A stretch of 64,000 nt of DNA, from assembly GCF_026151205.1 (NCBI RefSeq), contig NC_087078.1, positions 3,004,175 through 3,068,174 of the forward strand, given 5' to 3'. Numbering within the stretch: the first letter of the stretch is position 1; the number at the start of each line of letters is the position of its first letter. The notes under the pieces were generated by a model that did not search any database, was not told where the DNA came from, and worked only from the letters and a program-made list of their open reading frames with translations. A program made the position numbers and the translations under genes. This DNA comes from Bolinopsis microptera (lineage: Eukaryota > Ctenophora > Tentaculata > Lobata > Bolinopsidae). Of this stretch, positions 2,917 through 59,390 are shown piece by piece.

Positions 2917-2944
2917 CTACGTATAAGGAAGTTAGTCTAATTTC

Positions 2945-3203: not shown

Positions 3204-3856
3204 CTTCGGATTCCACACTTTGTACCGCAAATTTGTACTCTGTTACTCCTTTGTCAAAGCTAAAGTTTATCACCTCTTTGTTTTTTCCCCACGTATCTCT
3301 CCAAAACGCGGACCACCCCGTGCACACTGCGTTGGAAGGTTCGAAAGTGATCAGCAACTCGTCGTTGCAACTGATCTTCAAACCATTTGTTCCGTGGGTT
3401 TCTACTTTGAAGATCCTAAAGCCATCATCATCTTTAGCGGGCAAATCAACAGGAAGGTCTAAATTTGCTTCGGTTAAATGCGTACACTTAAGGAAACCAT
3501 ATTTTGGTGGATCTGAGAACGTTAATTTGAAACCCCCTGTCGAGTCACCGGCATTGTTTTCATAGTTGATTCTCAAATCTTTGCCATCTCCAATCGCCAG
3601 ATCAGTCTTCATATAAACATCCGCTCCTTCGGGAATGTCAATATCTCCCATGAACGGTTTGTCCTTCCATTGATCTGAAACTGCGGTGTTTTTAAGACAA
3701 ATGACAGTTAAAAATTGTACTTCTCAGTTCTCAGCCGAGTAGAATTAGAAAATATCACAAAATCTAGCGTCTATTACCTGGAATACTATTATCATCCCCA
3801 TCTTCCACAGCAACAATTACTTCTGGAAGAGGACCCACCATCGGAATTACCGTTGC
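3204..3856 (-). CDS. Two internal exons of an unidentified gene
   Basis: On the minus strand, exon 3856-3778 is preceded by ATTTCAG and followed by GTAATAG. Exon 3674-3204 is preceded by GTTTCAG and followed by GTAAGAAAT. The first exon starts in phase 0 and ends in phase 1. Joining them keeps the frame and reads IVAVEDGDDNSIPDQWKDK and onward to EYKF and ESEG. The second exon encodes about 157 residues rich in aromatic and charged residues, for example GWSAFWRDTWGKNKEV. I do not recognise the family. The beta-rich look and acidic linker would fit a secreted or surface module, but that is inference. The 5' exons and the exon after 3204 were not found. Part of the second exon is duplicated at 4108-4323. 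Confidence 0.55.
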
Positions 3857-18164: not shown

Positions 18165-21101
18165 GTGAAGCGATACTGCAACCAAGGTATGCTAGGTTTA
18201 GGCTATGAGAGCTTCTATCAAGATACCTTTGACTCGAAAGTAAAAGGCTCAGGAGTAGCTCTATATGTCCTTAACTCCTTTAATGCTGTTAAAAATAACA
18301 ACCTGTCACAAGTAACAGAAAATCTAGAAACCCTCTTTGTAACCATAGGAAGTATAGGAAATTATACTTCTATAGGAGTAATATACCGCCCTCCAAGTGG
18401 CAATGCTGAGCAAGCTCTCCAAGAATTGTCGTCAATCCTTGATAAAGCACCAAAACATACACACATTGCAGGTGATTTTAACATTAATCTCCATGGTAAA
18501 CACAGTAACATTATTGCACAGTATGAAGACGTCCTATTCAGTAGAGGCTTCTTCCCATTGATATCATTAGCAACTCATGAAAAGCCTGGATGTAATGCCT
18601 CGTGCATCGACAACATCATTACAAATGACCTAGACTCTGTTACTGCCTCTGGAGTCATAACTGACCACATATCTCACCACCTCCCTATATTTAATATATC
18701 TGACTGGAAAATTAGCAAGACCAAAAATATTCATAAGCACACTCAATATTATGACTATTGTAAGTCAAACACTGATAAATTTGCTGAAGTCTTGGGTAAT
18801 AAACTAGATAATGAACCAATTATAGATTTTACCAACTTTCATGATATCTTTAAAAACAGCATTGACGAAACCTGCAAACTAGCTGTACCCAAAACCACTA
18901 AGCGCACTATGCAGAACAACCCCTGGATTACTGGCGGGATTATAGCCTCAGTAAACCACTGCCATGGACTGTATGATGCCTGGGCGAAAGTCAGGAAAGT
19001 TAAGTGTAAACATGGCGAAACTGACACAAAAGGGGGCACATGCCTGTGTTCTATCTGCTGTAATAAAAGAAACCGTTATGATGACTACAAAGAATATAGA
19101 AAGGCTCTAAAAAAGGTTCGTAAAAAGGCTGTGTCTGAATATTATTCTGACAAGTTTCTTGAAACTCAGGGAAACTCCAAGAAAACCTGGGAACTTATAA
19201 ATAAAATTCGTGGCAAACAGAAACGTGATATCAGACCTATATTTACCATAGACAATGAAAAGATAACTAATCGCAGAGTTATAGCGAATGAATTCAATAA
19301 GTATTTTGTATCCCTAGCATCTAACCTTAATGCAGCCTACACAGAACTAGGAGAAATACAAATTAATCAGCTTCCAAGTTTCTGTGACCTCTTACCTAAA
19401 TCGAATACAGCTAATATATATCTACATGACTGCTCACCTGAAGAGGTGGCTAAGATCATATCGGAACTTAAGAATGGCAAGGCTAGTGATATACCAGTAC
19501 ATATAGTAAAGGCAGTATCAGGTATAATTAGTCCACTACTATCGGTATTGTATAACGAATGTATGCAACAGGGAGTTTTTCCAGACGACCTAAAAGTAGG
19601 TAAAATAAGTCCAATATATAAGAAAGAAAATGCTGAGCTTCTTGAAAATTACAGGCCTATCTCAACCTTAGCGATATTTGGTAAAATACTTGAGAAGATC
19701 ATATTCTCCAGGCTTTACAGTTTCTTTCAGTCGCAAGGATTATTATATGAAAATCAATATGGCTTCAGAAAAAATCATTCCACAAGCCATGCACTTAACT
19801 TCTCTGTCGACTACATTGAAAAATCACTAAGAGATAAAAATCATGTACTAGGCATCTTCATTGATTTAAGTAAAGCTTTTGATACAATCTGTCATGATAA
19901 ACTGCTTAAAAAACTGAATGATTATGGAATTCGAGGGACTGCAAATAAATTAATAGCCAGTTACCTCTCTAATAGACAGCAATATGTTTCAGTACTTGGA
20001 GAAGAATCCGAAAAACTGTCTGTAATATTTGGTGTGCCTCAGGGGTCAGTATTAGGTCCCTTGCTTTTCATTATCTACATCAATGAAATATATAGAGTAT
20101 CAGATCTAGGTAAGTTTATACTTTTTGCCGATGACACCAACATATTTGTTGTAGATAAATGTATAAAAACACTTTACTGCAAAGCTAACAAAATTCTTAA
20201 ACTTGTTCATCAGTATATGAAGAGTAACTTGCTGCATATCAACACAAAGAAATGTTGTTATATCCACTTTAAGCCGAACTGTAGAAATGAACCAGATTCA
20301 AACACCAATGAATTAGAACTGACACTGAATAATATAATAATTAAAAAGGTAGAGGAAACTAAGTTTCTTGGAGTCATTATTGACCAAAAACTGAACTGGG
20401 ATGCTCACTTAAGAGAGTTAAATAGTAAATTGAAATGTGAGATTGGTAGACTATGTGGAATTAGACGCTGTGTACCTAAAAAACTATATAAGGACCTGTA
20501 CCACACCCTTTTTGAATCACACCTATGTTATGGAATATCTGTTTGGGGAGGTGTATCAAATAATAAACTAGAAGCCATATTTAAAACACAAAAGAAATGC
20601 ATAAGAATTCTCTTTGGTGATAATGATGCGTACTTCAATAAGTTCAAAACATGTGCCAGAGTAAGGCCTATCACTAGGGATAAGACCGGTAAAGTTATCA
20701 AGCAGATGTTAGGCAAAGATTTCTTTGAACTAGAACACAGTAAACCAATCTGTAACGAGTATAACTTCCTGACTGTCCACAATCTTCATAAGTTGCACTG
20801 TTTACTGGAAATGTTTAAAATTAATAAGTTCCAATCACCAGTCTCAATGTTCTCTTTATTCAACAGGTCACCAAGACGAGACAACTACTTCATCCCACCC
20901 ACTCCGTCCTCACTATTCATCTACCAATCAACCAGTATTTGGAATCACTGCCGTAAGTCAACAAGTGAAATAGACTTCTCCACTCCTATCAGTATATTCA
21001 AGAATAATCTTAAGAAAGCTTTGTTAGAACTACAATCTAAATATGACAGACAACTATGGTGCAGTTACAACTTTGATGCAAATGAATTATCATTGAAATA
21101 G
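18165..21101 (+). CDS. 5'-truncated LINE ORF2: APE endonuclease and reverse transcriptase (CR1/L2-like)
   Basis: This 978-codon frame is uninterrupted. The endonuclease is missing its first strands: it begins around GYESFYQDTF and continues with VIYRPPSG, GDFNIN (from residue 103) and DHISHHLPIF, the late catalytic block of APE-type nucleases. The RT follows with ENYRPIS, FRKNHSTSHA, FIDLSKAFDT (motif A), GVPQGSVLGPLL (motif B) and FADDTN (F654-D657, motif C). A LINE-typical C-terminus carries TCARVRP and LTVHNLHK. It is closely related to ORF2 at 35896-39300 and to the inner element at 44921-46836, which share the HSTSHA-like, FADDTNIF/YADDTNIF and TCAR.RP motifs. Truncation within the endonuclease is typical of incomplete target-primed reverse transcription. 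The frame looks intact, but the copy cannot be complete. Confidence 0.9.
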   Translation: MKRYCNQGMLGLGYESFYQDTFDSKVKGSGVALYVLNSFNAVKNNNLSQVTENLETLFVTIGSIGNYTSIGVIYRPPSGNAEQALQELSSILDKAPKHTHIAGDFNINLHGKHSNIIAQYEDVLFSRGFFPLISLATHEKPGCNASCIDNIITNDLDSVTASGVITDHISHHLPIFNISDWKISKTKNIHKHTQYYDYCKSNTDKFAEVLGNKLDNEPIIDFTNFHDIFKNSIDETCKLAVPKTTKRTMQNNPWITGGIIASVNHCHGLYDAWAKVRKVKCKHGETDTKGGTCLCSICCNKRNRYDDYKEYRKALKKVRKKAVSEYYSDKFLETQGNSKKTWELINKIRGKQKRDIRPIFTIDNEKITNRRVIANEFNKYFVSLASNLNAAYTELGEIQINQLPSFCDLLPKSNTANIYLHDCSPEEVAKIISELKNGKASDIPVHIVKAVSGIISPLLSVLYNECMQQGVFPDDLKVGKISPIYKKENAELLENYRPISTLAIFGKILEKIIFSRLYSFFQSQGLLYENQYGFRKNHSTSHALNFSVDYIEKSLRDKNHVLGIFIDLSKAFDTICHDKLLKKLNDYGIRGTANKLIASYLSNRQQYVSVLGEESEKLSVIFGVPQGSVLGPLLFIIYINEIYRVSDLGKFILFADDTNIFVVDKCIKTLYCKANKILKLVHQYMKSNLLHINTKKCCYIHFKPNCRNEPDSNTNELELTLNNIIIKKVEETKFLGVIIDQKLNWDAHLRELNSKLKCEIGRLCGIRRCVPKKLYKDLYHTLFESHLCYGISVWGGVSNNKLEAIFKTQKKCIRILFGDNDAYFNKFKTCARVRPITRDKTGKVIKQMLGKDFFELEHSKPICNEYNFLTVHNLHKLHCLLEMFKINKFQSPVSMFSLFNRSPRRDNYFIPPTPSSLFIYQSTSIWNHCRKSTSEIDFSTPISIFKNNLKKALLELQSKYDRQLWCSYNFDANELSLK

Positions 21102-31055: not shown

Positions 31056-33773
31056 CTAAGTCCGATCTACGCCAGAAAACCCCCTCCATATATCCCTGTC
31101 CCGCATCAGGGTTCGCAGTTCCTCTTTAGAGTTTGTCCCAACTTCCTTCAGTAACATAGACAAGTAGCTTTGTCTTGGTCGGCCTTGCTGTGCTCTACCG
31201 TGCGTAGGTTCCCATAAGACTAAATCACTGGCAAGTAGCTCAGGATGTCGGATGCAGTGTCCCGCCATTTTTAATCTCCTGCTTCGTAACTTGTTTGACA
31301 GCCTTGGGAGGCTACCATACAAAGTTATATTGCTGACCTTGTCCTTCCATGAGATACCCAGCACCATACGCAACATCTTTGTGTATGTCCCGTCCAAACT
31401 TTTCTCTTGAGCCTTTGTCAGTGTCCAGGTTTCTGATCCGTAGAGCAGTACTGATTCACAAGCCGCTATGAACAATCTAATCTTTAGGCTCTTTGAGAGT
31501 TTGGATTTCCAGATATCCTTCAGTCTATGTAGGGCACCCCACGCTTTTCCCTTTCTAACCCTTATCTCCCTATCTGTGCTCTCAATCCAGGAGCCTAAGT
31601 AGATGAAATCATCTACATTTTCTATGGCTTCCCCGGATCGACTTTGTAGGTCGCTAGATCGATCCTCCATATTCAGTGTCATGACCTTGGTCTTGCCTTC
31701 GTTTATGTGTAGTCCCACGCTTGCTGCCGCTGATTCTACTCTGAGCAGGAACTCGTTAGCCTTGTCCATGTCCTCAGATATAAGTGCTATATCATCTGCA
31801 AAGTCCACATCGGTGATGATCTTGGGCCCCACTCTTCTGCTTTTTCTACGTTCGAGGGTGAGTCCAAGTCGCTCCGCATCATCGCCTATGGCTTGCCTCA
31901 TACAGTAGTCGATGACTATTGCAAAGAGGTAAGGTGCTAAGGTATCACCCTGTAACACACCTGCAAGTATCTCGAACAATTCAGTTTCTCCGTCTGGAGT
32001 TAGGACTTTGGCCATTGTCTTCTCGTACATGAGCCGTATAAGCTGCACGATTTTGACTGGAATGCCGTAAGCTTCTAGAATCTTTAGCATTTTCCCACGA
32101 TGTACACTGTCGAAAGCCTTCTTAAAGTCTATAAATGTCAGAACAGCTGGCAGTTTCCGACTCTTGACACCCTCTATAAGACGTCTCAGTACCAATATCT
32201 GTTGAGTTGTTGACCTTCCTGGTCTGAATCCATTCTGGTTTCTACGCAGAATTGTCTCGATTTCTGGCTTCAACCGGTTTAGAACCATCTTGTTTAGAGA
32301 CTTGGCAACTAGGGATGACAAGCTTATTCCCCGATAGTTCATTGGTTCGCTAAGGTCGCCCTTCTTTGGAATTGGTATGATGTTGGCAGTTGACCATTGG
32401 TCTGGTTTCTCACCTTTCAATAGAGCATTGTTACAGAAGTCTAAGACAATTTGATCAAGGTCGCATCGTTTTAAGACTTCTGGGGCTATGTTGTCGTCAC
32501 CCCATGCTTTCCCTTCCTTTATGCTGGACTTTGCTTTCCTGTACTCATCCAACGTAAACGGTTCTGTTCCGATATTCAGAGGTGGGTGGACTGGATCAAT
32601 ATCCTCTTCCGCGTTCTCTACCGTCGGTGGTGAGCCGAGAAGAGTAGCAAAATAGTCCTTCCATTTCTGAACCCTTTCCGTTGGTGAGTTTCCCTTGATT
32701 TTGCCAGTATATGATGGAGCTTTACCTGTGATCTTGTTGATCATGGTCCAGCTTTTAGCATGTCTGCCCTGCCAACTTGCTTCCTCCAGTTCCCGGACCT
32801 GCCCCTCCAGCAGGTGCTCTTTGGCTGCTTGATAAGCATCGCCTAGCTTCTGTTTGCCCTCTTGAACAGCTATTCGGTTGTCTTCTGTAGCATCTGAGTG
32901 GTATTTTATGCTACATTCCCTCAGCTTCAGCCTGGCAGTCTCAACACTTGGAGTCGCTGAGATTTTACATCTTTTCTTTTTCTCCTTTTCAGGTAGTAAA
33001 AGTCGAGAAGTTGTCCTATTCGCATCAATAAAGCATTGGTACCTTTCTGTTGCCGTCTGATCATCCTTTTCAAGTATGGAAAAGCGGTTTTTAACTTCCA
33101 CTGTGTACCTCTCTTGTAGAGCGATATCAGTTTTAAGTTTAGACCTGTCCAGAACCGGAGCCCTCTTCTCCGTCTTGCTTATCCGTAGACTAAGCTTTAC
33201 CCTTGCTACGACTACTCTGTGATCCGAGCCAATACTGTGGAAACTACCATATGCTTCGGAGTTCTTGACGGAGTTCCGCCATTTCTTCCGGCAAATGATG
33301 AAGTCGATTTGAGATTTACTTTGACTCATATCTGAGAGATATGTCCAGAGTTTACCTCTTCGCTTCTGAAATCTGGTGTTTGTGATTTCTAGCTGTCGCT
33401 CCAACAGCATATCCTCTAGCAGTCTACCATTTCGGTTTGCTGGACCCTTGTGGAAGGATGTCCAGTTTCCTGATGATGAGACATGCGCATTGAGGTCTCC
33501 TACAACGAATAGTAAGTTGTGGGCTGGTATCTGGTCGATGGCACCACCAAGGCTGTCGTAGTAGTTTTCTGCTTCGTCGACAGTCGCCCCCTCTGTTGGG
33601 CTATAAGTCACAATAACAGTTGTGACCGGGTTCCCTGCAAAGTTGGCTACCATCGTCCTCCTGTCATGTGAGTATACACTAATCAATGAGTTGAATACTG
33701 TCTTTTTGTCCAAGACAATACCAACCCCACCAGCAGCCGCCCCATTGCTGGTTCTCCATGCCGAAGTTGTTAT
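31056..33773 (-). CDS. RTE-like LINE polyprotein, endonuclease C-terminal part and reverse transcriptase
   Basis: The frame from the first Met at 33713 has 885 codons and no stops. It extends upstream to the insertion junction, reading TSAWRTSNGAAAGGVGIVL, the start of an APE endonuclease core strand. Next come VVGDLNAHV and GSDHRVVVARV (endonuclease), then FIDFKKAFDSVH (RT motif A), GVLQGDTLAPYLF (motif B) and DFADDIAL (motif C, F638-D641 counting from the Met at 33713). The C-terminal region has YGSETWTLTKAQEKSL and RRLKMAGHCIRHP, usual in RTE-group proteins. Its missing N-terminus is at 39898-40090. This copy was probably complete until the second LINE landed in it. Confidence 0.9.
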   Translation of the reverse strand: MTTSAWRTSNGAAAGGVGIVLDKKTVFNSLISVYSHDRRTMVANFAGNPVTTVIVTYSPTEGATVDEAENYYDSLGGAIDQIPAHNLLFVVGDLNAHVSSSGNWTSFHKGPANRNGRLLEDMLLERQLEITNTRFQKRRGKLWTYLSDMSQSKSQIDFIICRKKWRNSVKNSEAYGSFHSIGSDHRVVVARVKLSLRISKTEKRAPVLDRSKLKTDIALQERYTVEVKNRFSILEKDDQTATERYQCFIDANRTTSRLLLPEKEKKKRCKISATPSVETARLKLRECSIKYHSDATEDNRIAVQEGKQKLGDAYQAAKEHLLEGQVRELEEASWQGRHAKSWTMINKITGKAPSYTGKIKGNSPTERVQKWKDYFATLLGSPPTVENAEEDIDPVHPPLNIGTEPFTLDEYRKAKSSIKEGKAWGDDNIAPEVLKRCDLDQIVLDFCNNALLKGEKPDQWSTANIIPIPKKGDLSEPMNYRGISLSSLVAKSLNKMVLNRLKPEIETILRRNQNGFRPGRSTTQQILVLRRLIEGVKSRKLPAVLTFIDFKKAFDSVHRGKMLKILEAYGIPVKIVQLIRLMYEKTMAKVLTPDGETELFEILAGVLQGDTLAPYLFAIVIDYCMRQAIGDDAERLGLTLERRKSRRVGPKIITDVDFADDIALISEDMDKANEFLLRVESAAASVGLHINEGKTKVMTLNMEDRSSDLQSRSGEAIENVDDFIYLGSWIESTDREIRVRKGKAWGALHRLKDIWKSKLSKSLKIRLFIAACESVLLYGSETWTLTKAQEKSLDGTYTKMLRMVLGISWKDKVSNITLYGSLPRLSNKLRSRRLKMAGHCIRHPELLASDLVLWEPTHGRAQQGRPRQSYLSMLLKEVGTNSKEELRTLMRDRDIWRGFSGVDRT

Positions 33774-33823
33774 TTTTCAATCTTTTGAATCATTTTGACT
33801 AATCCAGTTTAAATACACTTTCA

Positions 33824-35902
33824 TTGTTTTCCACAACGGAACATTTGAAATTGCTATCTGCTTTTCTTTCTTTCCAGGGAGTGTGCTGGTTGGACGTGAA
33901 GGTGCCCCCTGGATTGCCTGGTACCCCCAATTGCTTCTACGCCATGAACGATACACCCACTGACTCTTCTCAATCTGTTCCGGACCAGACTTCAACTACT
34001 ACGGTTCCGGATCAGACTACACCTGCACCCACGACTCCTACCATTATGGTGGAAATCGACGAAGTACTGAAGGATGTTGAAAATATAATTCTTTCAGAAT
34101 ACCACGAATCAGAGGAAAATAAAGATTGTAGCAGCCTCCTTAGTTTCTTCTCAGGGTCTACCCCCCTTGACAACTTCCTGTTGACTCACTCGCAGAGCCT
34201 GCGCTCAGAGGTAGATATCATTAAGCTCAACATCTGTAACATTCTAAAACTTGATGTGAACAAATTTGCAATCATAACGCCATCTATGGTTAAGAGCTGC
34301 CCATCTCTTAAAAAACTCACCTTAGCAGAGGGTCTACTATCCCTGCTTGGCCTTGCAGAAAATGTCTGTGCTGTAATAAGTGGCAAGAGATGTGACCACG
34401 AGGTTAAGTCCCCTTCTTATTTGTCAGCCCCCTCCAGTATTCCAATGGGTCATACTACTTCTAACGAAAGCTCTATACACAAGTCCTTAGAAGATATTCA
34501 AACATCCATTAAAAACTTGAAAGACAATGATAGCCACCTTAGGACTCTTGACTCCATAAACACCAAGCTTGCTGAGCTCAAAGTTGATATTAACTGTTTC
34601 AAAAATAGCAGATCCTCAAACGTATCCACTCCTGACCTGCCCATGCCTCCTTTTATCATAGGGCCACCAGCAGCCTGTGAAACAGACCATGAACAGCTCC
34701 TGCTAGATGCACAGAAGCCTTCAAGTGCAGACGACCCAAAGTCTAAGCACATCATGTCTTATTTACCAGAATTCATTGATACAACCTTGAACTCTCAGCT
34801 ATTAGATTTCCTTGCTCAACAGAACGATGATTTTGTCAAGAACACAGAAAACGGGCATGGAGTTATAAGCTTTGGTGAACGATATGATTACCCCGGGGCA
34901 AAAGCTGCTAAGCCCATATCAGAAGACCTGCCTGAAGTTCTTGCTGAACTTGCCTCAAGGATAAAGAAGCTTTGCCCTGAAACAGTTATTAATCAATGCC
35001 TGATCAACCGGTACAATGATGAGAGCAGTTTTCTCCCTAAACACTCGGATAACGAGAACTCGCTTGTGCATGATAGTTCGATTTTCACTGTATCGTTAGG
35101 AAGCCAGTGTTCAGTTAAGTTCTCAATGAAAGGATCAGAAAGTGGGGAAGTCATTGAGACAATAGAGGGACGCAGTCTATATATCATGAGCAAGCAGTCT
35201 CAGTTCCTCTGGGACCACAGAATAGATAAGAGCAGTGAAAGGAGGGACGTGAGATTCAGTATAACGTTCCGCTACGTGAGCAGCAGTAGCAATGCAACAT
35301 TGATTATTGGTGACTCAAATACCCGGTTCCTCCGATTTGGTGCTGGAAAAGGGACATTCGGTCACAAACTGCCTGGAAAAAGACTTGAATGCTTCACAAT
35401 AGATCAGTTAGACCCTGCCCTTTGTGTAGGATATAAGAATGTTGTAGTACACTGTGGTGTAAATAATATTAAGAGGGGAGGGTGTGATGTTAAACACTGG
35501 GCTAATGAGCTGACGAAGAAGCTCACGAATATTTGTGAAATTTGTCCTTACTCTAAAGTTATAGTTTCACCAATCCTACCAACTAGGTCCTCCTGGCTAA
35601 ATGAGAGAGCCATGGAGTTTAATAGTATATTGTTTGGGTACTGTAATACCAACGCTAGAATAGGAAATTTAGATTTTGATAGTTTTGTCGATGAGGAGGG
35701 TCTACTGAACAAACAGTTTTGTAGGTACAAGAAGCCGGATGACCCAATCCACCTGGGGTCAAGCGGTATCTTCAAACTCTCCCGGGCAATTGCCCATAAG
35801 ATTCTAGGTAGCCCCGTTGATGGGAGGTTGTTCAGTGATGTTACCAAGGCCCAAAATAGATTTTCCCCACGTTCTCGTAGATCTGTAATCCAGTCATGGT
35901 AG
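33824..35902 (+). CDS. LINE ORF1: coiled coil, AlkB-like dioxygenase and SGNH/GDSL esterase
   Basis: The frame has 692 codons. A second ATG at 33944 (MNDTPTDSS) is an equally good start, because the first 40 residues lack conserved features. Residues ~220-265 look like a coiled coil (SLEDIQTSIKNL). An AlkB-type Fe(II)/2-oxoglutarate dioxygenase follows: NRYNDESS, H407 and D409 in HSDNE, distal H465, and R477/R483 in RFSITFR, with the six-residue arginine spacing of AlkB. All iron and 2OG ligands appear present. An SGNH hydrolase comes next: G496-D497-S498-N499 (block I), H543-C-G-V-N-N (block III), and D640-P-I-H643 (block V). Esterase domains are known in ORF1 of some CR1-group LINEs, and AlkB domains are known to reverse alkylation of nucleic acids. 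The predicted role here is binding and perhaps repairing the element RNA, which is inference. ORF2 starts 7 nt before its end. Confidence 0.85.
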   Translation: MFSTTEHLKLLSAFLSFQGVCWLDVKVPPGLPGTPNCFYAMNDTPTDSSQSVPDQTSTTTVPDQTTPAPTTPTIMVEIDEVLKDVENIILSEYHESEENKDCSSLLSFFSGSTPLDNFLLTHSQSLRSEVDIIKLNICNILKLDVNKFAIITPSMVKSCPSLKKLTLAEGLLSLLGLAENVCAVISGKRCDHEVKSPSYLSAPSSIPMGHTTSNESSIHKSLEDIQTSIKNLKDNDSHLRTLDSINTKLAELKVDINCFKNSRSSNVSTPDLPMPPFIIGPPAACETDHEQLLLDAQKPSSADDPKSKHIMSYLPEFIDTTLNSQLLDFLAQQNDDFVKNTENGHGVISFGERYDYPGAKAAKPISEDLPEVLAELASRIKKLCPETVINQCLINRYNDESSFLPKHSDNENSLVHDSSIFTVSLGSQCSVKFSMKGSESGEVIETIEGRSLYIMSKQSQFLWDHRIDKSSERRDVRFSITFRYVSSSSNATLIIGDSNTRFLRFGAGKGTFGHKLPGKRLECFTIDQLDPALCVGYKNVVVHCGVNNIKRGGCDVKHWANELTKKLTNICEICPYSKVIVSPILPTRSSWLNERAMEFNSILFGYCNTNARIGNLDFDSFVDEEGLLNKQFCRYKKPDDPIHLGSSGIFKLSRAIAHKILGSPVDGRLFSDVTKAQNRFSPRSRRSVIQSW

Positions 35903-38900
35903 TCAAACTGATATGCGAAATCTGCTGCTGTTGCAATAGACCTGTGCGTGCTGGACATCCATTTTTGATTTGTCAGATGTGTGACAAAATAATGCACAAA
36001 AAATGTAAAACTGATGATAACATAACCAAATTTCGAGATGCAACATATTGCAAAATATGCACTGATGCCAATGATATTGTACGGTACAACCCTTTCTACC
36101 AAGCACCACACTTTGCAAACAATGGCCTCATTGATGATGAGCCAGTTAATTATATTGAATCTATCTACAATAGCTCAAAGATTCTTGAAAATTGCAAAAC
36201 ATTCTCCATAACTGAGTTGAATGCTACCGTCCTACCTAAAAATTCAGCTAAATATTTGTCCAAATTATTCCTAAATATTGATGGAAATGCATCAAACTTT
36301 GACAACTTTGCAGTTGAGCTGTCTTGTATCGACCACAAATTCTCTGTTATCGGTCTTGCAGAAACAAATACTAATCCCGAAAATGGAACTCTGTATCAGC
36401 TTAACGGATACTCCTCCTGTTACCAATCACGTTATTTTTGTCAAAAGAAAAACCAGTTCAAGGGTAAAGGATCAGGAGTGTGTCTTTACCTGCACAACTC
36501 CTTTAACTTTAACAAAATCCCTGGCTTATCTCTCTGTAATGAACACATAGAATCACTGTTCGTATCCATCACTAGCTTGCAAGACCCAACTGTTGTAGGG
36601 GTTATATACCGTCCCCCAAACGCATCACTTGAACTGTTCAACGAAGCATATGAATGTATTCTCTCAAAACTGAATGGCAAAAAAGTATATATTCTTGGTG
36701 ATTTCAATATAAACATGTTGAAGGACCCATCTCCATCAGAGGACAAATTCCAAGAAATAATATTCAACAACGGCTTCATACCAACCATATCAGTACCAAC
36801 TCACCAAATGCCTGGCTGTTCCAGGACCTGTATTGACAATATCCATACCAATGTAGTAGATCAAACCCTTATTTCTGGTGTGATATCTGACAAGATCTCC
36901 CACCATCACCCTATATTCACTCTTATTGAACTTTCCCCTGACTCTGTGCCAACACCTGATTCATCAGACAAAATTACTATACACTACGACTATAGTAATG
37001 CTAACTTAGAAAAGCTCTGTCTTGAAATAGAAAACGATGTAGATAGGTTCCACCACAGCTGTAACACATTTGATTCTTTCATGCAGTTATTTCAAGAAAA
37101 GATAGATTTGTCTTGCAAACTTCTAACTCCTAGAACCACTAAACGTAACAGCATAACCAACCCTTGGATTACCCAGGGCCTAATTAATTCCATCGATAAG
37201 AAAGCTAGGTTGTATTTCGAATGGAAGAAGACTTGTACATTAAAACTACCTGACGGGGACCCAAACAAGCACATCTACTACAAGGAATTCGACAAGTTTC
37301 TCAAAAGGTCAATAAATATGGCAAAGGCTATGTGCTATACTCAAAAATTCGAGAAGTACAGCATGAATTCGAAAAAGACTTGGGAAGTTATAAATGAACT
37401 CCGTGGTAAAAATTTGTCTAGATGTAAGGACGATTTTGTCATAGATGGCCAGAGAGTTACTTGCAGACGAATAATTGCTAACAAATTTTGTGAATATTTT
37501 ACATCTCTTGCAAGTAATCTCAATAAAAATGTATTGTCAAACAATAGTATTTCTCTGGAACCAGTAGAATCATTTGCTCAGTCCATGTCTAATTCAGTAT
37601 CTGACTCCATATACCTAGAAGAAACTAATGAAGACGAGATTGTCGAGGTCATCAGAGATTTTCAAAATGGCAAGGCGAGTGACATACCTATAATCGTTGT
37701 AAAAAAATCGGCAAAGCTCATTGCTGGTACCTTGGCCAGGCTTTACAACACATGTATACAAAGTGGTACATTCCCAAGTATATTTAAAACTGGTAAAGTT
37801 ATTCCTATTTACAAGAAAGACAATAAGGAATGCATTGAAAATTATCGGCCTGTATCAATATTACCTTTATTTGGAAAAATCTTTGAGAAGATCATTTACA
37901 AACGCCTTTATAATTTCTTCACATCTAAAGGTGTACTAACAGACTCACAGTTTGGATTTAGAAAAGGCCATTCTACCACTCATGCTCTACACAAATCTAT
38001 AGACTCCGTTACAAAGTCTCTGGCTAGCAATAAACATGTATTGGGCATATTCATTGACTTGAGCAAAGCCTTTGACACCCTTGATCACAATATTCTTCTA
38101 AGCAAGTTAAATTCCTACGGTATTAGGGGTTCAGCACTTACCTTACTTAAAAGCTATTTGACTAACAGAAAGCAGTATGTTATGTATAACGATGTACCAT
38201 CAGTAACAATGGACGTGAAATTTGGAGTACCACAAGGGTCAATTCTTGGGCCACTACTCTTCCTACTGTATATGAACGATATAGTAAACTGTTTTTCAGA
38301 CAGTGAGGTGAAATTTGTACTTTATGCTGATGACACTAATATCTTCATATCAGGACCATCTAGAGAAGCAACATATAAAAAAGCCAACTTAGTACTTAAA
38401 CATGTCTCGATTTACATGAAATGTAATCTACTTCATATCAACATGTCCAAATGCTGCTACATACATTTTAAACCTGCCTCTGAATATGATGACACCTGTG
38501 CGCGGACTAGACCATTTGCTAACCTACTAGATGAATCTAGATCAATATTCATCGATGGTAAGGTTATCACTAAAGTCAAGGATACCAAATTCTTAGGTGT
38601 TGTTATAGATAGTAAGCTAAACTGGATTGCCCACATGCACTACATCCGTAAAAAGCTGCGGACCATGACTGGTGCAATCTGTAGAATCCGGCACTCTATA
38701 CCTGCTGAACTATACTTGAAAATATATAATGCTCTTTTTGAATCACATCTCAGTTATGGTATAAGTGTTTGGGGTGTTGTCATCAAGGAACGGTCCAATG
38801 ACAGTCTTTTTATCACTCAGAAGCACTGTATAAGGATCCTTTTTGGTGATCTCGACTCATATCTAGATAAACAATCAACATGTGCAAGAACTAGACCATA

Positions 38901-39300
38901 TGGTATGCAAAGATTAGGCCATAAACATTTTGAAAAGGAGCATACAAAACCCATTTTTAATAGACTAAAAATTCTTACAGTTCAAAACTTGTTCAAGTAC
39001 CATTGCATTTCAGAATTCTCTAAGATTATCAAGTACCACTGCCCATACTCCCTTTATGAGGCCATCAACATTTCAAACCGTACAACGAGTTTAACGGTTA
39101 TTCTTCTTAATAAATCAAATACTTTTTTGTTCACTGCAGCCAAGCTTTGGAACACTGTTCATAAAAAAATTCTAACCTCAAGCAATTGCCTAGAAACTTC
39201 CATTAACTTGATAAAATTGAGAACCAAGGCACTATTATTACAAGTACAGGCTGCTGATTTAAAAGATACTTGGAATCCAAACAATTTTAAATTGCAGTAA
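35896..39300 (+). CDS. LINE ORF2: PHD-like finger, APE endonuclease, reverse transcriptase
   Basis: 1134 codons without interruption. The N-terminus has a C4HC3-type finger: C7, C10, C26, C29, H34, C37, C52, C55. The endonuclease shows LAETNTNPEN, VIYRPPNA, GDFNIN (G268) and SDKISHHHPIF. The RT shows ENYRPVSILP, FRKGHSTTHA, FIDLSKAFDTLDH (motif A), GVPQGSILGPLLF (motif B) and YADDTN (Y810-D813, motif C). The C-terminus carries TCARTRP and LTVQNLFKYH. The order matches CR1/L2-like LINEs. The ATG overlaps the ORF1 stop in the string ATGGTAG, which suggests coupled termination and re-initiation. All catalytic residues that can be judged are present. Confidence 0.93.
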   Translation: MVVKLICEICCCCNRPVRAGHPFLICQMCDKIMHKKCKTDDNITKFRDATYCKICTDANDIVRYNPFYQAPHFANNGLIDDEPVNYIESIYNSSKILENCKTFSITELNATVLPKNSAKYLSKLFLNIDGNASNFDNFAVELSCIDHKFSVIGLAETNTNPENGTLYQLNGYSSCYQSRYFCQKKNQFKGKGSGVCLYLHNSFNFNKIPGLSLCNEHIESLFVSITSLQDPTVVGVIYRPPNASLELFNEAYECILSKLNGKKVYILGDFNINMLKDPSPSEDKFQEIIFNNGFIPTISVPTHQMPGCSRTCIDNIHTNVVDQTLISGVISDKISHHHPIFTLIELSPDSVPTPDSSDKITIHYDYSNANLEKLCLEIENDVDRFHHSCNTFDSFMQLFQEKIDLSCKLLTPRTTKRNSITNPWITQGLINSIDKKARLYFEWKKTCTLKLPDGDPNKHIYYKEFDKFLKRSINMAKAMCYTQKFEKYSMNSKKTWEVINELRGKNLSRCKDDFVIDGQRVTCRRIIANKFCEYFTSLASNLNKNVLSNNSISLEPVESFAQSMSNSVSDSIYLEETNEDEIVEVIRDFQNGKASDIPIIVVKKSAKLIAGTLARLYNTCIQSGTFPSIFKTGKVIPIYKKDNKECIENYRPVSILPLFGKIFEKIIYKRLYNFFTSKGVLTDSQFGFRKGHSTTHALHKSIDSVTKSLASNKHVLGIFIDLSKAFDTLDHNILLSKLNSYGIRGSALTLLKSYLTNRKQYVMYNDVPSVTMDVKFGVPQGSILGPLLFLLYMNDIVNCFSDSEVKFVLYADDTNIFISGPSREATYKKANLVLKHVSIYMKCNLLHINMSKCCYIHFKPASEYDDTCARTRPFANLLDESRSIFIDGKVITKVKDTKFLGVVIDSKLNWIAHMHYIRKKLRTMTGAICRIRHSIPAELYLKIYNALFESHLSYGISVWGVVIKERSNDSLFITQKHCIRILFGDLDSYLDKQSTCARTRPYGMQRLGHKHFEKEHTKPIFNRLKILTVQNLFKYHCISEFSKIIKYHCPYSLYEAINISNRTTSLTVILLNKSNTFLFTAAKLWNTVHKKILTSSNCLETSINLIKLRTKALLLQVQAADLKDTWNPNNFKLQ

Positions 39301-39897
39301 TCTATTCTAATCGCAGCAGCACACACTTAACACACTTAATATTACTATCATGATTGTATTATAGACTGAAAAGCTCTCAGATCAATTTTGGGCGTTTTTA
39401 ACCACTTGTTGTAATGTTTTTAATTATTTAATATCTTAACTTAACTAAATTTTTATTCAGATCGAATTAACAAATAATATTTGATAATTTATTCGATAGT
39501 TTAGTCTGATATTGATATTGACTATATTGATATTGTTATTATTGAATGAAGTTAACTCCAGACGTACATAATATTACTTCTTTTAACAAAGGGACTTGGA
39601 GTATAAACGACCAAGTTAGCATACATTTTCAACCAACCAAGAATTCTGGAGGCAAAGGTGGGTGCGTAAACTTTATGGTCTGTACTCTCCGATCCTGTAT
39701 CACCCAGGATTCTTTTCGACGTTTTTGGTAAAAGGTATATACCTTCTAGTCAATCTCTTGCTACTCCAAGTCCCCCAAGATTTCTAAACTAAAGTTCGTC
39801 CTAGTTATATTATATTATATAAAATATATTTTTTTGTTTGCTGTAACTGATACTAAATAAAATTGTTGTTTTCCTGAAATTGTTGTTTTCCTGTTAT

Positions 39898-44920: not shown

Positions 44921-46836
44921 CAATGAAACTAATAAATCAATGAAACTAATAAATCAATGTTTTAGCTCATTTTACAAAGTCAAATATTTAAAACAATTAA
45001 AATTGTATAGTGCTCAATTTTAATAAAACAAATAGATTTTTGGAAACTAGAAGGACTGAAAACTAAAATTGTTTTTGATGGAGGCTGAGGCATGTTTTTG
45101 AGAGGGACGGTATAATAGCTTGTGGTAACAACTGGCCTTTACTTTAATAGGATGAAGTTTTAGTTTTAGGACAGGAAGAAGGCATTAAGAAGATTTGCTC
45201 TTTGTTTACAAGGCAGAATATAAGCAATGTTGGTTATAATATGTATCAATATCTAGATCTTCGTTTATCAATTTTCACTAAATGGGTTTAAAATTTTAAT
45301 AGGGAGGGAAATTCATCAACTTTATTAAGTACCTATCAAAAATAAATCTTATATCAATGTAATATATTAAAAATCATAATCCTAAGTCTAATAATAAATC
45401 TGTTAAAAACACTTTCTCACTACACTGCGCTCACACACGTTAGTAAGACAAAGGAAAATGCACACCCAGCTAATTTTCAATTTCAAGATAATCATTTTGG
45501 ATGTGTGGACCCTAGGGTAGACTTAATGTCAAAATTTAGATTAGAGCATTCGAAATCTTTGTTTGTCCAATCAAGATCAGCATGGTTATGCTGGTTGACG
45601 AGCAGTGATTGCTTCATCCTAGACTTCAGGCAGGCCACACTTAGACAGTAGTCACGTATACCAAGCTTAGGCACAATTACGTTCCAAATACGAGTCGTTC
45701 TGCTATTGAAGTTGTCAGGGGGGTCTGCTTGGCTTAGTATAAGGGTGGGTTTCCTACTTGAGCAGGTGAAATTTTCATGGAGGGAAATCGGAGCACGGAA
45801 TTTCATGATTTTATAGAGCTCAAGGAAACAATGGTAAGTGTACAGGTTTTGGACGGCAAGTATTCCGTGTTCCTTGAACAAAGGTTTCGTGTGCTCTTTC
45901 AAGAAAAATTTTTTGTTCAGATTTTGGTTGCCAAACGGTCGAGCACGAGCACAGGTCTTAAATTTATCTAGGTATGCCTCCCTGTCGCCAAACAGTACCC
46001 TGAGACAATATTTTTGTGCTTTGAATACAGAACTTATACGAGTTTTGGCTGCCCCACCCCAAACCGTGATACAATAGGAGAGGTGTGATTCAAATAGAGT
46101 GTAATACAACTGGCGGTGTAAGAAATCTGGGAGGGAGCAGCGTAGGCGGCAGAGAGTTGATGTTGCATGGCTGAGAGAACGCCTAAGTGATTTTATATGT
46201 TCTTCCCAGGTTAGCTTTTCATCGATGACGACTCCCAGAAACTTAGCAGATGCAACTTGTTTTATTGGAAAGTTATCAATGGTTAGAGTATATTCAGAAT
46301 TATTGTCAGTCTGGGAGGACGATGCTGGTTTAAAGTGAATGAAACAGCATTTAGACAAGTTGACATGGAGTTTGTTTGCTCGCATGTAGGAATATAAACT
46401 AGCTAAAAGAGAATTACCACGCATATATGCCTCCTTTTTAGATTTCCCAGTCACAAATATATTGGTGTCATCAGCGAAGGTGACAAATGATCCCAAACTG
46501 GAGCTGTTGGCGATATCATTAATATATAGGAGAAATAAGAGAGGTCCAAGAATCGAACCCTGAGGGACTCCAAACTGTATTTTCAAGGCGTCAGATTTCT
46601 CACCAACAACTTCAGTATATTGTGATCTATTTGTTAAGTAACTTTTTATAAGATCATTTGCCACCCCACGTATCCCATAGCCCTGTAATTTGACAAGTAA
46701 TGTACCATGATCTATTGTATCAAAAGCTTTGCTAAGGTCTATGAATATGCCTAAGACATGATGCTTAAGTTTTAGAGATTCAGTTATAAGGTTTACTGAG
46801 TGATTAACTGCATGTGAAGTAGAGTGTGACTGCCTG
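44921..46836 (-). mobile_element. Second LINE inserted in the outer LINE, 5'-truncated
   Basis: 1,916 bp flanked by an exact 6-bp target duplication ATAACT (44915-44920 and 46837-46842). The minus-strand 3' end carries just over two copies of a 17-bp unit, read on the plus strand as CAATGAAACTAATAAAT from 44921. It has the same orientation as the outer element. Confidence 0.85.
45492..46836 (-). CDS. Reverse transcriptase of the inner LINE (5'-truncated, fused in frame to the outer ORF)
   Basis: It starts in the RT at HSTSHAVNHSV, the point where related copies read FRKNHSTSHA. It continues with FIDLSKAFDTIDH (motif A), GVPQGSILGPLLF (motif B), FADDTN (F811-D814 of the fused frame, motif C), CFIHFKPAS, TCARARP and LAVQNLYTYH. 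It ends at 45492 with a ~570-bp 3' region. It is closely related to the LINEs at 18165 and 33774. The endonuclease and first RT blocks are absent, so it cannot move by itself. Confidence 0.9.
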
Positions 46837-48908
46837 ATAACTGCCCTCATACCTTGTTTTTGTTTAGCAAAAAGAGATTCTATAAGAGATTTTGAAGCAA
46901 ATCCCCAGACAAGTGAGCAGAAGTTTAAATGGGACTGAACAAAACTTTGGAAAATCTGTAAACGGGCCTTCATTGGCAATTTATGTTTTATCCTGTACAT
47001 CACCCCAATAAATCTTGACATCTTGCTCCTCAGTGCTTTTATGTGGCTACTCCAGTTAAGCTTTTCATCTACAATTACACCAAGAAACCGGGCTTCAGTT
47101 TTACGTTCTAATACTGTATTTTCTATTTGTACTTTAATCAATGATGGTTCTATGCGCTTTTTCGAGAAAATCATATAACACGTCTTTTTTAGATTTAGTG
47201 CTAATCCGTTGCTATTAACCCACCGTGATAATGTTTCCGTTAGTTGGTTGACCCTTAGCATTAGTTCTTGGACATTGGAACCGTTAATAATGATATTTGC
47301 ATCGTCTGCATAAAGTATGAATTTTACCATCATGTTAGAAATACCGGGAAGATCGTTGATGTATATGACGAAAAGTAAGGGACCTAGTATGCTCCCTTGT
47401 GGAACACCATGCACAATAGGCTTGTGGGACGAATGTGAATTGTTTATTGCTACATATTGGCTTCTATCACTTAGGTATGACTCAAACCACTTTAGAGCTA
47501 TTCCCCGGATGCCGTAGTGCTGTAATTTATTTAGCAGTGTAGCATGATCCAGGACGTCAAACGCTTTACTGTAATCTAATAATAGCAGTAGTGAAATTTG
47601 GTTTTTGCTAAGAGATTGTAAAATTGTACTTTGTGCATTAAGAAGAGCATGTTCACAGGACCTTCCTGGACGGAACCCATACTGATTTTCGAATAAAGAA
47701 CTATTTTTGTTGAGAAATTCTAAGACACGTCGGTGCATCAGTTTTTCGTAGATTTTTGAGAAGGAACCTAAGAGAGAGATGGGTCTATAATTTTCAACGT
47801 CAAGTTTAGAGCCTCCTTTATGGATGGGAGTTACTTTGGCAATTTTAAGGGCCTGTGGAAATATGCCTGTACTTAAGGATTCGTTGATAACTTTTGCTAA
47901 TATAGCAAGGAAACTATCGCTGGAACTGGCTACTTTTAGTGGTTCAATTTTTGTGTCAAGGGTCGCTTTGTTCTTCAAACCAATAATAATTCTTTGAATT
48001 TCGATCGTTTCAGCAGGCTGGAGATAGATTGATTGAGAACAGGATGTGGGCAGATATTCCTGGAACCCCCCAGGGTCAAAGGTCTGACGGGCACTTATCT
48101 GAGTTTTGATGTTCGTAGCAATGTTCGAGAAATAGTCATTAAACCTTTCAGCCACGGTATCTTCAGAACTCAAAATCGACCCGTCCGAACCTTTAAGTCT
48201 TAACTGCTCTGTTTTCCTGCTTCTACCAAGTAAACCGTTGATTATTTGCCATTGTTTTTTGGAGCAGTCCTGGTATTTTTCGAATTGTTTTTTATAGTAT
48301 CGTTGTTTGGCAATGTTGACATGTTTTTTACAGAAAAGTTTTAGCTTTTTATAGGCCTCTATATTATTCATTGTAGGTTCAAGTACTTTACTATGATAAC
48401 TTTCTTGTTTCCGCGCACATGCTTCTTCAAGCCAGGGTAATATCCAGGGTTTAGTATTAGAACGCTCATGTTCACGGCGAATATGATTGATTTTTAGTGG
48501 ATAGGCAGTGTTATAGTGCTTGGTGTATATATCTGCAAGTTTTCCGTATTGCAGACTAGCGTCGTCTGTACTTAATATCTCGTCCCACGTTTCCCCATCG
48601 ATGAGTTCCCTAAAAGCAGCATTGTTGGCTTCATTTATGACACGTGTTTCATAACTAAGTTTAGGTTGTGTGTTAGTGGGTAGCCTGAGATGTTGTTGCG
48701 AAGAGTTACTTAGTTTAAAAGTGGTAACGATAGCAAGATGATCCGATAAATCCACCGTTACAACGTTACTGCTTACTGTGTTATTTATATTATTTGTGTA
48801 GACATGATCAATTAAGGTAGCACTATGATCGGTGACTCGTGTCGGCCTTGAAACCGTCTGAACAAATCCATAACAACTATATAAACTTGAATTTAAATTG
48901 ATAAACAA
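46837..48908 (-). CDS. Outer LINE ORF2, endonuclease end and reverse transcriptase (first ~690 codons of an 1138-codon fused frame)
   Basis: The physical frame runs 48908-45492 (1138 codons) but is a fusion. Residues 1-690 belong to the outer LINE: the end of an APE endonuclease (TRVTDHSATLIDH, then VDLSDHLAIVTTF), the RT with ENYRPISLLGSFSKI, LLLDYSKAFDVLDH (motif A), GVPQGSILGPLLF (motif B) and YADDAN (Y533-D536, motif C), then RFLGVIVDEKLNW. At residue ~691 it passes into the inserted LINE without a frameshift or stop. The missing C-terminus of the outer protein is at 44449-44916. Confidence 0.88.
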
Positions 48909-50140: not shown

Positions 50141-51448
50141 TAGTAGTGAAACAAATTTTTAGTGAAACAAATTTAAAATTTTATCCTTTATTTTACAATC
50201 ATAATATAATAATATTTATAAGCCTCCGTTTTGAAAGTTTTAAATTTTAATACATTCACAATTCTATTTAAAATTCAATTTTATGTACAAGTCAATAACT
50301 GGCCGCCAAAGCCGCGCATTCTTGAAAACAGGATTAACTTGATTATAGTTATACGACTATGTAAATTTAAAACTATCCGTGGTTTTTTCTTTTAAATAAA
50401 TAAATTATAATTTTACCTAAGTCAACTTTAAATCGTCAACTTTAAATATTTACAATGCAACAATTCATTAATTTGTAAACACGCGTACTCCAGCCCCTAA
50501 ACGCATAAATTGTTATGCGGCGCGGCTCAAGCCGCGCACGCACGTATTATTTTATACTGTTTGCTTTCTAATAAATATCGTGCCAATGTGTACGTCTAAA
50601 TTGTAAACGTTCATGTTTTGTGCAGAGTGAATCCAATTGGGACTAGTGACAAGGATAAGGACCCAAGTGCCTGTGCGGCTTTTTCGGGCCCCTGTGGACC
50701 ACTACTCTTGAAATCACTCTACAACATTGAACATCTATATCTACTACGTCATTTGGCAATTGTTGTCATTAATCTAACTTTCTAATTAATTGCCGAGGGG
50801 GAAGAGTAAACGCTTCACATTAAAATTCAATATACAAAATTCAAAACCATCAATACGGTATTAAATATTATGGACAAGTCTATAGATCTATTTCGTAGTC
50901 ATATATTCACATGATTTGCTTTATATTATCTTAATACTGTAATGAAGTACAGTAGGATTTGTGTTTCGAGAAAGAAAGGTTGCGGTCAAATTATTAACAA
51001 AAGTAAACAAAAGTCCATCAGGGACTACGTGGAGTCGAAAAAGGTACACGGCTGCTGTCTGGTGCTGCTAGGCATTTATTGATCAAGATGTTTTATTGTA
51101 TTGATTTATAATGATTCTATTGTTCGTGACTAATCAAGTTCTAAGTGGAGGTATAAAGTGCTGCTCAAGATACTTCGTCATCTCATGTCCAGTATAATGA
51201 TTAAGATAGTATACAATGCAATGTAAGAATATAGTTCCGTGTCAGGGTAGATAAATAGATTTTTAGATAAATAAGTCACGGGAGAGGAAAAGAATAAAAC
51301 TTCTATGTACATTTCTTAGTTCAAGGTTCACCAAATTGTTTAAATTTAGCTATTTTTATTTTTTTAAATAGCTGCAAGGAATTTGATCTGTCCAATATCG
51401 ATTAATTTATGCGTGATACTCAAAATAAATATGCTTTAGTGATCAATA
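50141..51448. other. Intergenic, no gene seen
   Basis: AT-rich DNA upstream of the THG1 gene. It contains two related CCGCGC patches (50303-50318 and 50518-50541) and a GC-richer stretch at 50635-50705. No recognisable coding exon or clear promoter element. Confidence 0.4.
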
Positions 51449-52210
51449 ATGGCTAAAAGTAAGTTTGAATATGTTCGACTGTACGAGCTGGATGATAAAC
51501 TGTTAAAAAACGTGTGGATGGTTGTGAGAGTTGATGGAAAAGGATTTCACAAGTTCACCAACGACCACAACTTTGAGAAACCCAACGACTTGGCTGCTCT
51601 GAACTTAATGAACGATGCTGCTAAAGGGGTTATGTCAGAGCTACAAGACATTTTCATGGCATATGGACAAAGTGATGAATACAGTTTCATTTTCAAACGG
51701 TCCTCAACGCTGTATGGACGTCGGAGCAGCAAGATTCTATCTACAGTTTGTTCCATGTTCACATCACATTATTTGTTTAATTGGAGCAAGCATTTCAATG
51801 ATCCATTGTTGTATCCCCCTAGTTTTGATGCTCGGGTTGTTCTTTATCCAACAGTAAGAGATGTTAGGAACTATTTCAATTGGAGGCAAGCGGATTGTCA
51901 CATCAATAATTTATACAACACTTGCTTTTGGGCACTTGTTCAAGACGGTAATTTGTCTAACTCTGAGGCTGAGAAGCGTCTTAAAGGCACATTTTCTGCA
52001 GATAAAAATGAAATACTTTTTGCAAAGTTTGGAGTAAATTACAATGAACTTTCTGAAATTTACAGAAAGGGATCAACTATAATTTGGAATGAGAATAAAA
52101 GTGAAGATGGTAGAAAGAGAAAAGTTTTGAAGTTGTTGACTTGTGATATTATTGGAGATTCTTTTTGGGAAGATCATGCTTCATATCTTGATACTTCTAT
52201 TACTGATTAG
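51449..52210 (+). CDS. THG1L: tRNA-His guanylyltransferase (THG1)
   Basis: THG1 adds G(-1) to the 5' end of tRNA-His, the identity element for histidyl-tRNA synthetase, using 3'-5' polymerisation. The 253-codon frame reads FEYVRLYELDDKLL, VVRVDGKGFHKF (metal-binding D29) and MAYGQSDEYSF (D76-E77), then FDARVVLYPT, FNWRQADCHINNLYNT and HASYLDTSITD. The first aspartate and the SDE motif are the palm-fold catalytic carboxylates. The length is close to the family core (about 250-300 residues). The ATG chosen is the one directly before the conserved KSKFEYVR start, as in animal homologues without the mitochondrial leader. No introns interrupt it, unlike the next gene. It is transcribed in the same direction as PIH1D1, 530 bp upstream of that gene's ATG. 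Confidence 0.93.
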   Translation: MAKSKFEYVRLYELDDKLLKNVWMVVRVDGKGFHKFTNDHNFEKPNDLAALNLMNDAAKGVMSELQDIFMAYGQSDEYSFIFKRSSTLYGRRSSKILSTVCSMFTSHYLFNWSKHFNDPLLYPPSFDARVVLYPTVRDVRNYFNWRQADCHINNLYNTCFWALVQDGNLSNSEAEKRLKGTFSADKNEILFAKFGVNYNELSEIYRKGSTIIWNENKSEDGRKRKVLKLLTCDIIGDSFWEDHASYLDTSITD

Positions 52211-59108: not shown

Positions 59109-59390
59109 CTGAAATACTCGTCCGTTATCTTAATAAGTTTATACTTAATTAGTTTCTACTTTAATAGTTTATACTTAAGGGGTACTGGTAGCAGGTAGCA
59201 GCTAACCAAACTGACTGGAAATGTTGTGCAAATTGTATTATTATCTTGTTGAAAAATTACCTCATAGTTCAGTTATCTTGATGTCATAATATTAACGAAG
59301 CAAATCATATCTTACTATATATAAAGCGAGACGATATATATATTGACGTATGTTTTGCGCGGTTTTGCAACGCCTTTGTTCCTCTGTAAA

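Follow-up and report, generated by a model that had tools for sequence, protein, structure and literature searches.

A ctenophore LINE whose ORF1 joins an AlkB-type dioxygenase and an SGNH hydrolase, a pair also carried by other LINE groups and a Helitron

The window analyzed here, a stretch of 64,000 nucleotides from the ctenophore Bolinopsis microptera (NC_087078.1, positions 3,004,175 to 3,068,174), contains a full-length long interspersed nuclear element (LINE) of ∼6122 bp on the forward strand (33772..39893). The element has near-identical open copies in the genome, and its first open reading frame (ORF1) encodes an AlkB-type dioxygenase followed by an SGNH hydrolase, a pair that recurs across several LINE groups and that we also found in a Helitron. 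The preliminary description of this DNA had assigned the pair to one retrotransposon protein; the pair is real, yet it is not a single occurrence, being spread over multiple families in different LINE groups and at least one Helitron. The ends of the element are common to many copies: when the window was compared with fetched copies using blastn, 5′-complete copies mostly began at 33772 (loci L017 and L018 begin a few bases later) and 3′-complete copies stopped at 39893-39894.

ORF1 is one open frame at 33824-35902 (stop-to-stop from 33803). It had been described as intact over that range, and the open frame stands; the TTG at 33824 is nevertheless an unlikely start, because an ATG at 33944 is common to the subfamilies and the frame upstream of it is not conserved. 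In that upstream part the DNA is conserved and the frame is not, and the upstream residues of L017 match the window in another frame (33814-33936). The coding sequence therefore probably runs from 33944 to 35902 (forward strand). We keep the earlier residue numbering, counted from TTG 33824, in which ATG 33944 is M41. Leucines and isoleucines spaced by 3-4 residues mark a possible coiled coil in the N-terminal part (34475..34591, forward strand, residues 218-256). Its best heptad score was equaled or exceeded in 31 of 500 shuffles, and a stretch near residue 542 scores just as high.

The AlkB-type 2-oxoglutarate (2OG) and Fe(II) dioxygenase domain (34874..35272, forward strand) spans residues 351-483, where Pfam reports PF13532 (2OG-FeII_Oxy_2) at E 2.2e-16 and 61.1 bits, against a cut-off of 31.2. 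On the same strand, the iron ligands H407 and D409 lie in the motif HSD (35042..35050), H465 at 35216..35218, and the arginines R477 and R483 in RFSITFR (35252..35272). The RxxxxxR pair at the C-terminal end of an AlkB domain consists of the 2OG-binding and the AlkB-specific arginines. All five residues are invariant in 21/21 aligned ORF1 frames, in A1, and in A4, a profile of the AlkB domains of six LINE sequences from this genome; by pattern match, the motif R.[SN]xTxR is present in 12/12 rows from transposable elements (TEs). With its iron triad, arginine pair and profile match, the domain would thus fit the AlkB family. The HxD...H and R...R ligands proposed in the preliminary description are borne out by Pfam, profiles and invariance, and not one of the 21 open copies has lost them. 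A chance motif was ruled out by Pfam, profile and hhalign scores that are far from chance (99.6% in hhalign against 11 bacterial AlkB proteins), and a pseudogene of a host ALKBH by the finding that the host orthologs of ALKBH2 and ALKBH3 occupy separate loci (L025 and L026). The sequence HSDNE, with N in place of D beside HxD, was considered as a signature of a special substrate and rejected, since HxDNE also occurs in two of the six bacterial AlkB compared.

Directly after AlkB comes the SGNH hydrolase/esterase domain (35291..35803, forward strand), with the motifs GDSN (S498), GVNN and DPIH (H643). In the single copy, the Pfam match to Lipase_GDSL_2 (PF13472, residues 520-648) is weak, with E 0.0032 and 18.4 bits against a cut-off of 32.9. 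The profile A3, made from the SGNH part of six LINE sequences, matches in PDB a putative PAF hydrolase (2hsj, E 3.4e-10) and an ORF1-encoded protein (4c1b, E 1.4e-8). We take 4c1b to be the ZfL2-1 esterase, an assumption that agrees with PMC3905857. The match to 4c1b supports the SGNH esterase that had been proposed for this ORF1. Both the serine of GDS (S498) and the histidine of DxxH (H643) are invariant in 21/21 aligned open ORF1 frames, as are the G and N of block III, and the H, in the six A3 sequences.

ORF2 (35896..39300, forward strand, 1134 aa) overlaps the stop of ORF1 in ATGGTAG, so that its ATG lies inside the end of ORF1, an arrangement that suggests coupled re-initiation. At its N terminus a pattern match marks a putative C4HC3 (PHD-like) zinc finger (35914..36060, forward strand); Pfam gave no PHD match for the finger of the window, and for the equivalent finger in ORF2 of L038 a match below cut-off (E 0.0016). 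An apurinic-type endonuclease region (36337..36894, forward strand; PF03372 at E 0.003 and PF14529 at E 0.0032, both below cut-off) and a reverse transcriptase domain (37813..38607, forward strand; PF00078, RVT_1, at E 6.8e-36) follow, and RNase H families were absent from the Pfam matches up to E 1. An apurinic-type endonuclease, even if below cut-off, with a reverse transcriptase and no RNase H match would be consistent with a LINE of the esterase-type ORF1 class. We infer a CR1/L2-like LINE from the type of ORF1, the position of the finger, and a short target-site duplication. The candidate duplication, TGTTA, was read by eye in the flanks: its left copy (33768..33772, forward strand) overlaps the first base of the element, and its right copy (39892..39896, forward strand) the last bases. 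Joining the flanks minus one copy of TGTTA yields the open frame of another LINE, interrupted by the insertion, which lies on the reverse strand (31056..33776; PF00078, RVT_1, at E 2.6e-33), continues on the right flank, and is presumably RTE-like.

Searches of the genome with the two proteins returned at least 66 matches for ORF1, at 49%-100% identity, and at least 44 for ORF2, the counts being lower bounds (944 and 7309 first-look candidates, of which 64 and 41 were scored). Twenty-three of the ORF2 matches span residues 1-1134 and 22 of them are stop-free; nine, including the copy in the window, are full-length matches at 99%-100%. These nine, together with near-complete ORF1 relatives at 99%-100% on other contigs, rule out a chimera or assembly artifact. 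For ORF1 we aligned 21 open near-complete frames out of the 66 matches, belonging to five subfamilies; the remainder were fragments, copies interrupted by stops, and further open copies. The comparison of nonsynonymous and synonymous rates (dN/dS) that the preliminary description had proposed for the AlkB ligands was made over the AlkB domain and gave 0.077-0.195 between four subfamilies (Nei-Gojobori, five of six pairs with computable dS); these ratios are rough, dS being high, with proportions up to 0.71 in the pairs used, and every pair that involves L019, the fifth subfamily, is saturated. Together with the invariant ligands, these values rule out a dead or decaying AlkB domain. Judging from these alignments, the active-site residues of both AlkB and SGNH are kept under purifying selection.

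Divergence is uneven along ORF1. Third-position differences between the window and L017 rise from 0.24-0.33 (residues 41-240) to 0.40-0.60 (residues 291-490), and those between L011 and L013 fall from 0.38-0.58 (residues 41-490) to 0.08-0.18 (residues 541-690). The subfamilies therefore look like mosaics, with switches before the AlkB domain and near the border between AlkB and SGNH, and the pattern (window 33944-35902 versus L011, L013 and L017) suggests recombination between subfamilies. Elsewhere, at G000:C19:60073-64421 (L007), one strand carries a pair of ORF1 copies in nearly head-to-tail arrangement, each from a different subfamily.

AlkB domains are abundant in this genome. A search with PF13532 gave at least 151 matches (587 candidates, 150 scored), and 149 of the 150 rows listed are stop-free within the match; a search with the AlkB domain of another LINE family (L060) gave at least 150 matches among 769 candidates, with stops in 7 of 150 rows. 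By eye the two lists have 19 rows in common, which leaves ∼280 places, a few of them host genes, and the families of the window itself add to this number. These counts bear on the idea that AlkB is a passenger, captured by chance and unimportant for transposition. Elements sometimes carry captured fragments, and the extra ORFs of bdelloid elements show no significant departure from neutrality (PMC5408684; statements on cited papers refer, here and below, to the parts of them that were available). Purifying selection, ligands invariant over deep divergence, and matches without a stop in 149/150 (PF13532) and 143/150 (L060) listed rows speak against a passenger, which we disfavor and regard as very improbable.

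Pfam scans covered 19 proteins, 16 of which were drawn from the PF13532 list and were thus mostly preselected for AlkB. All 16 have PF13532 above cut-off, and eight have GDSL/SGNH at E ≤ 0.05 (L028, L029, L031, L038, L044, L046, L047 and L054), above cut-off only in L054. The other eight are the host genes L025 and L026, then L027, and L039, L041, L049, L051 and L053, several of them incomplete because the frame is cut or truncated; L041 shows, by eye, an SGNH-like end. Loci L030, L032, L033, L035-L037, L040, L042, L045, L048, L050 and L052 were fetched without a Pfam scan. We distinguish four architectures. In the first, AlkB precedes SGNH, as in the family of the window and L019, and by eye in L109 and L110; L038 and L060 have a PHD-like finger (below cut-off), AlkB and SGNH, and L061 is similar, its SGNH being detected by alignment only. 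Here ORF2 of L038, L109 and L110 begins with a finger and endonuclease-like sequence (in L038 from Pfam matches below cut-off, in L109 and L110 by eye). In the second, L031 carries AlkB and SGNH, and its ORF2 (L057) has a clear reverse transcriptase with 25%-31% identity to ORF2 of the window; L047 and L059, covered in their ORF1 part only, have an ORF1 like that of L031. In the third, L044 has AlkB and, beyond a long intervening stretch, a weak match to SGNH; the ORF2 (L058) behind its sister copy L045 has a reverse transcriptase and an endonuclease, and its nearest relative is the window's RTE-like frame.

The fourth architecture consists of giant frames of 2225-3388 aa. One of them, assembled from L029 (223-3402) and L055 (3-4379), was read to its end (2459 aa) and contains, in order, SGNH, a proline-rich linker, AlkB, Helitron_like_N (PF14214, E 1.8e-22) and PIF1 (PF05970, E 6.2e-21), the frame stopping inside the helicase domain (profile positions 2-158 of 223). 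SGNH and AlkB thus lie ahead of Rep and helicase, and with a predicted Rep and Pif1-like helicase in one frame this element is a Helitron. Its order, SGNH-AlkB, is the reverse of the AlkB-SGNH order of the LINEs. The fetched parts of L046, L043 and L054 have the same SGNH-AlkB order, and we infer that these are Helitrons too; in L039 and L053 only AlkB was seen. Relatives were also sought in viral contigs, where none was found. Besides these elements, L027 has an open, ALKBH3-like frame (1063-1950), apparently an exon, with an SGNH frame 0.7 kb downstream (2662-3438); it may belong to the host, represent a domesticated copy, or come from another element.

In phylogenetic trees, TE AlkB domains form a lineage of their own. 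The bacterial AlkB came from 47 loci, 26 of them used in A2, 11 in A5 and six in the trees (L091 was dropped for a stop in frame); the smaller tree omits L049 and L053, which are near-duplicates, and ALKBH1, 4, 5, 6, 7 and FTO were outside the trees. Without ALKBH8, eleven TE domains (nine from LINE-type ORF1, two of Helitron type) make one clade with support of 99/99, apart from host and human ALKBH2/3, L027 and the six bacterial AlkB; L044 also falls outside, and constraining it to join the other TE domains was not rejected (p-AU 0.19). Support for the TE clade in the smaller tree is 84/88. There, grouping the LINE-type rows including L027 was rejected (p-AU 0.014), and grouping all TE rows including L027 was not (p-AU 0.057). 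Adding ALKBH8, a partial and very long row, places it with the TE domains, apart from ALKBH2/3 and the bacteria (97-100 bootstrap); monophyly of the eleven TE domains is then neither shown nor rejected (p-AU 0.16-0.44), and L044 weakly joins L027 and ALKBH3 (86/75). L027 groups with the host ALKBH3 in the trees. A TE lineage of AlkB distinct from ALKBH2/3 is thus well supported by these phylogenies. A single capture of AlkB by TEs is possible, and L044 may represent a second one. The Helitron AlkB may or may not nest among those of the LINEs: in the tree without ALKBH8, a constraint uniting the ten LINE-type rows (with L044) to the exclusion of the Helitrons was not rejected (p-AU 0.14).

LINEs and Helitrons both have a single-stranded intermediate (RNA in LINEs, DNA in Helitrons), and ORF1 proteins are presumed to package element RNA. 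The role suggested in the preliminary description, in which AlkB would protect or repair the RNA or cDNA of the element or counter RNA methylation by the host, would fit these data. We tentatively favor, with somewhat less than even confidence, the hypothesis that AlkB clears methyl lesions from the template and that SGNH serves membrane contact. Multimers of the ORF1 protein would coat the element RNA, and the AlkB domain would bind single-stranded nucleic acid and oxidatively strip from the template the methyls that block Watson-Crick pairing (m1A, m3C and perhaps m1G), either ahead of target-primed reverse transcription or in the course of it. The substrate of the domain in Helitrons would be their single-stranded DNA intermediate; Helitrons fit template repair because they pass through single-stranded DNA. 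AlkB takes m1A and m3C off both DNA and RNA (PMC7968990), and reverse transcription is hindered by methylated nucleosides, for which AlkB is used as relief (PMC8053708, PMC7968990). The SGNH domain may anchor the particle at lipid membranes or release it there, as proposed for ZfL2-1, the esterase of which binds phospholipids (PMC3905857). Since esterase-type ORF1 proteins have no structural RNA-binding domain (PMC3905857), AlkB may also supply nucleic-acid binding. This same lack could mean that the AlkB fold is chiefly the nucleic-acid-binding module of the ORF1 protein, with catalysis secondary, and a catalytically dead AlkB from an orchid Ty3/Gypsy element still binds RNA (PMC9289625). None of the five catalytic ligands varies, however, either inside an aligned family or from one to the next, an invariance that binding alone would not call for; we consider a mainly binding role unlikely.

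Similarity to solved structures bears on the substrate. With phmmer, the closest match of ORF1 is ALKBH3 (E 1.9e-5), followed by ALKBH8 (E 3.5e-5) and ALKBH2 (E 0.0017). For the AlkB domain of the window alone the values are 2.9e-6 for ALKBH3 and 1.1e-5 for ALKBH8, and the A4 profile matches ALKBH2 (E 1.6e-17), then ALKBH3 and ALKBH8. Chains labeled simply AlkB (E 0.00025 and above) match it weakly, as do two labeled DNA N6-methyl adenine demethylase (E 0.0056 and 0.0086). ALKBH5 and FTO are absent from the PDB matches of ORF1 (E ≤ 1), of the AlkB domain (E ≤ 0.001), and of the A4 profile (E ≤ 0.01), an absence that, as a matter of sequence similarity, does not exclude activity on N6-methyladenosine (m6A). 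The domain might serve to evade the host by erasing a regulatory mark such as m6A that silences the element RNA. The orchid AlkB, the only direct precedent we found, removes m6A in vitro and its H448A mutant does not (PMC9289625), m6A and ALKBH5 affect L1 (PMC7873242), and the weak demethylase matches of A4 point the same way. Against such evasion, it is ALKBH2, 3 and 8 that appear among the matches and not ALKBH5 or FTO, and Helitrons would be covered only if the target were their mRNA or N6-methyladenine in their DNA; we judge it rather unlikely, if still worth weighing.

ALKBH8 is a tRNA wobble-uridine hydroxylase. The near equality of its score with that of ALKBH3, and its place among or beside the TE domains in the trees, would suit a different substrate, be it the wobble uridine of tRNA, a protein, or a defense RNA of the host. 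In the trees, however, ALKBH8 is a partial row on a very long branch, and the profile prefers ALKBH2/3, so that we think such a substrate quite improbable. The comparable scores of ALKBH8 and ALKBH3 nonetheless count against template repair, as do the weak matches of A4 to N6-methyl adenine demethylases and the m6A demethylation by the orchid enzyme (PMC9289625). Furthermore, constraint on the ligands is uninformative about the substrate, and a membrane role tied to ribonucleoproteins leaves SGNH in Helitrons unexplained. A broader version, in which the transposon-specific AlkB lineage and SGNH form an accessory module that circulates among unrelated elements and keeps single-stranded intermediates copyable by removing lesions or marks, seems possible to us, with the balance leaning against it.

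Several parts of this system have known counterparts. Like the esterase-type LINEs ZfL2-1 and CR1 (type IV ORF1; PMC3905857, PMC4120745), the element has SGNH in ORF1 and endonuclease and reverse transcriptase in ORF2; unlike them, it has AlkB directly before SGNH, and the words alkb and oxygenase have no occurrence in PMC4120745. PHD-like fingers such as that of the window LINE are known in L2/CR1, and in L2 subgroup 5 the finger is probably at the start of ORF2. Within the set of PMC4120745, esterase ORF1 is confined to vertebrate groups, and cnidarian and sponge elements have also been named as having it (PMC3905857). The orchid Ty3/Gypsy ORF (PMC9289625) is likewise an AlkB-type dioxygenase with an HxD...H center encoded by a retroelement, but it is an additional ORF in a plant long terminal repeat (LTR) retrotransposon, ALKBH5-like according to its authors, and no SGNH partner is noted in the available text. 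Texim of fish Helitrons provides a CR1-related SGNH hydrolase found with Helitrons (PMC4021074); its abstract does not mention AlkB, whereas here SGNH and AlkB share one frame with Rep and helicase. The GDSL and DEDDy ORFs of bdelloid LTR and Penelope elements are also enzymatic accessory modules common to element classes, but the available text has no occurrence of AlkB (PMC5408684), and the classes here are LINEs and Helitrons. Extra Helitron domains have been cataloged, in the portion available, without AlkB (PMC6431247).

In the literature searched, judged by titles and abstract openings, we found neither a LINE nor a Helitron described as carrying AlkB. Plant flexiviruses, mobile elements whose genome is single-stranded RNA, do carry AlkB, but in the viral replicase and with no reverse transcription. 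The chassis, a LINE with esterase ORF1, and each domain singly are already known; what appears new, as far as our literature search reached, is the combination of AlkB with SGNH and its presence in a Helitron as well. If template repair is correct, an ORF1-encoded AlkB would be a natural version of the laboratory AlkB treatment for reverse transcription and a new reason for ORF1, that is, self-encoded template repair, which we did not find described for LINEs or Helitrons in that literature. For the question of what esterase-type ORF1 proteins do, the AlkB ligands give a concrete handle, and the occurrence of the pair in a Helitron points to a need shared by elements with single-stranded intermediates.

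The remainder of the window holds further LINE sequence and probable host genes. A second LINE ORF2 frame (18165-21101, forward strand, 978 aa) has 44% identity to ORF2 of the element, and the sequence upstream of it gave no match to any of 11 AlkB-bearing query proteins. On the reverse strand, a single open frame (45492-48908) fuses parts of two different LINE reverse transcriptases in succession. We take a frame resembling tRNA-His guanylyltransferase (51443-52210) and SRCR-like frames (57620-59124), both recognized by eye, to be likely host genes. At 98-489 lies a short repeat that is open in both directions, in which HVITTLLPLVNP is seen by eye to be repeated.

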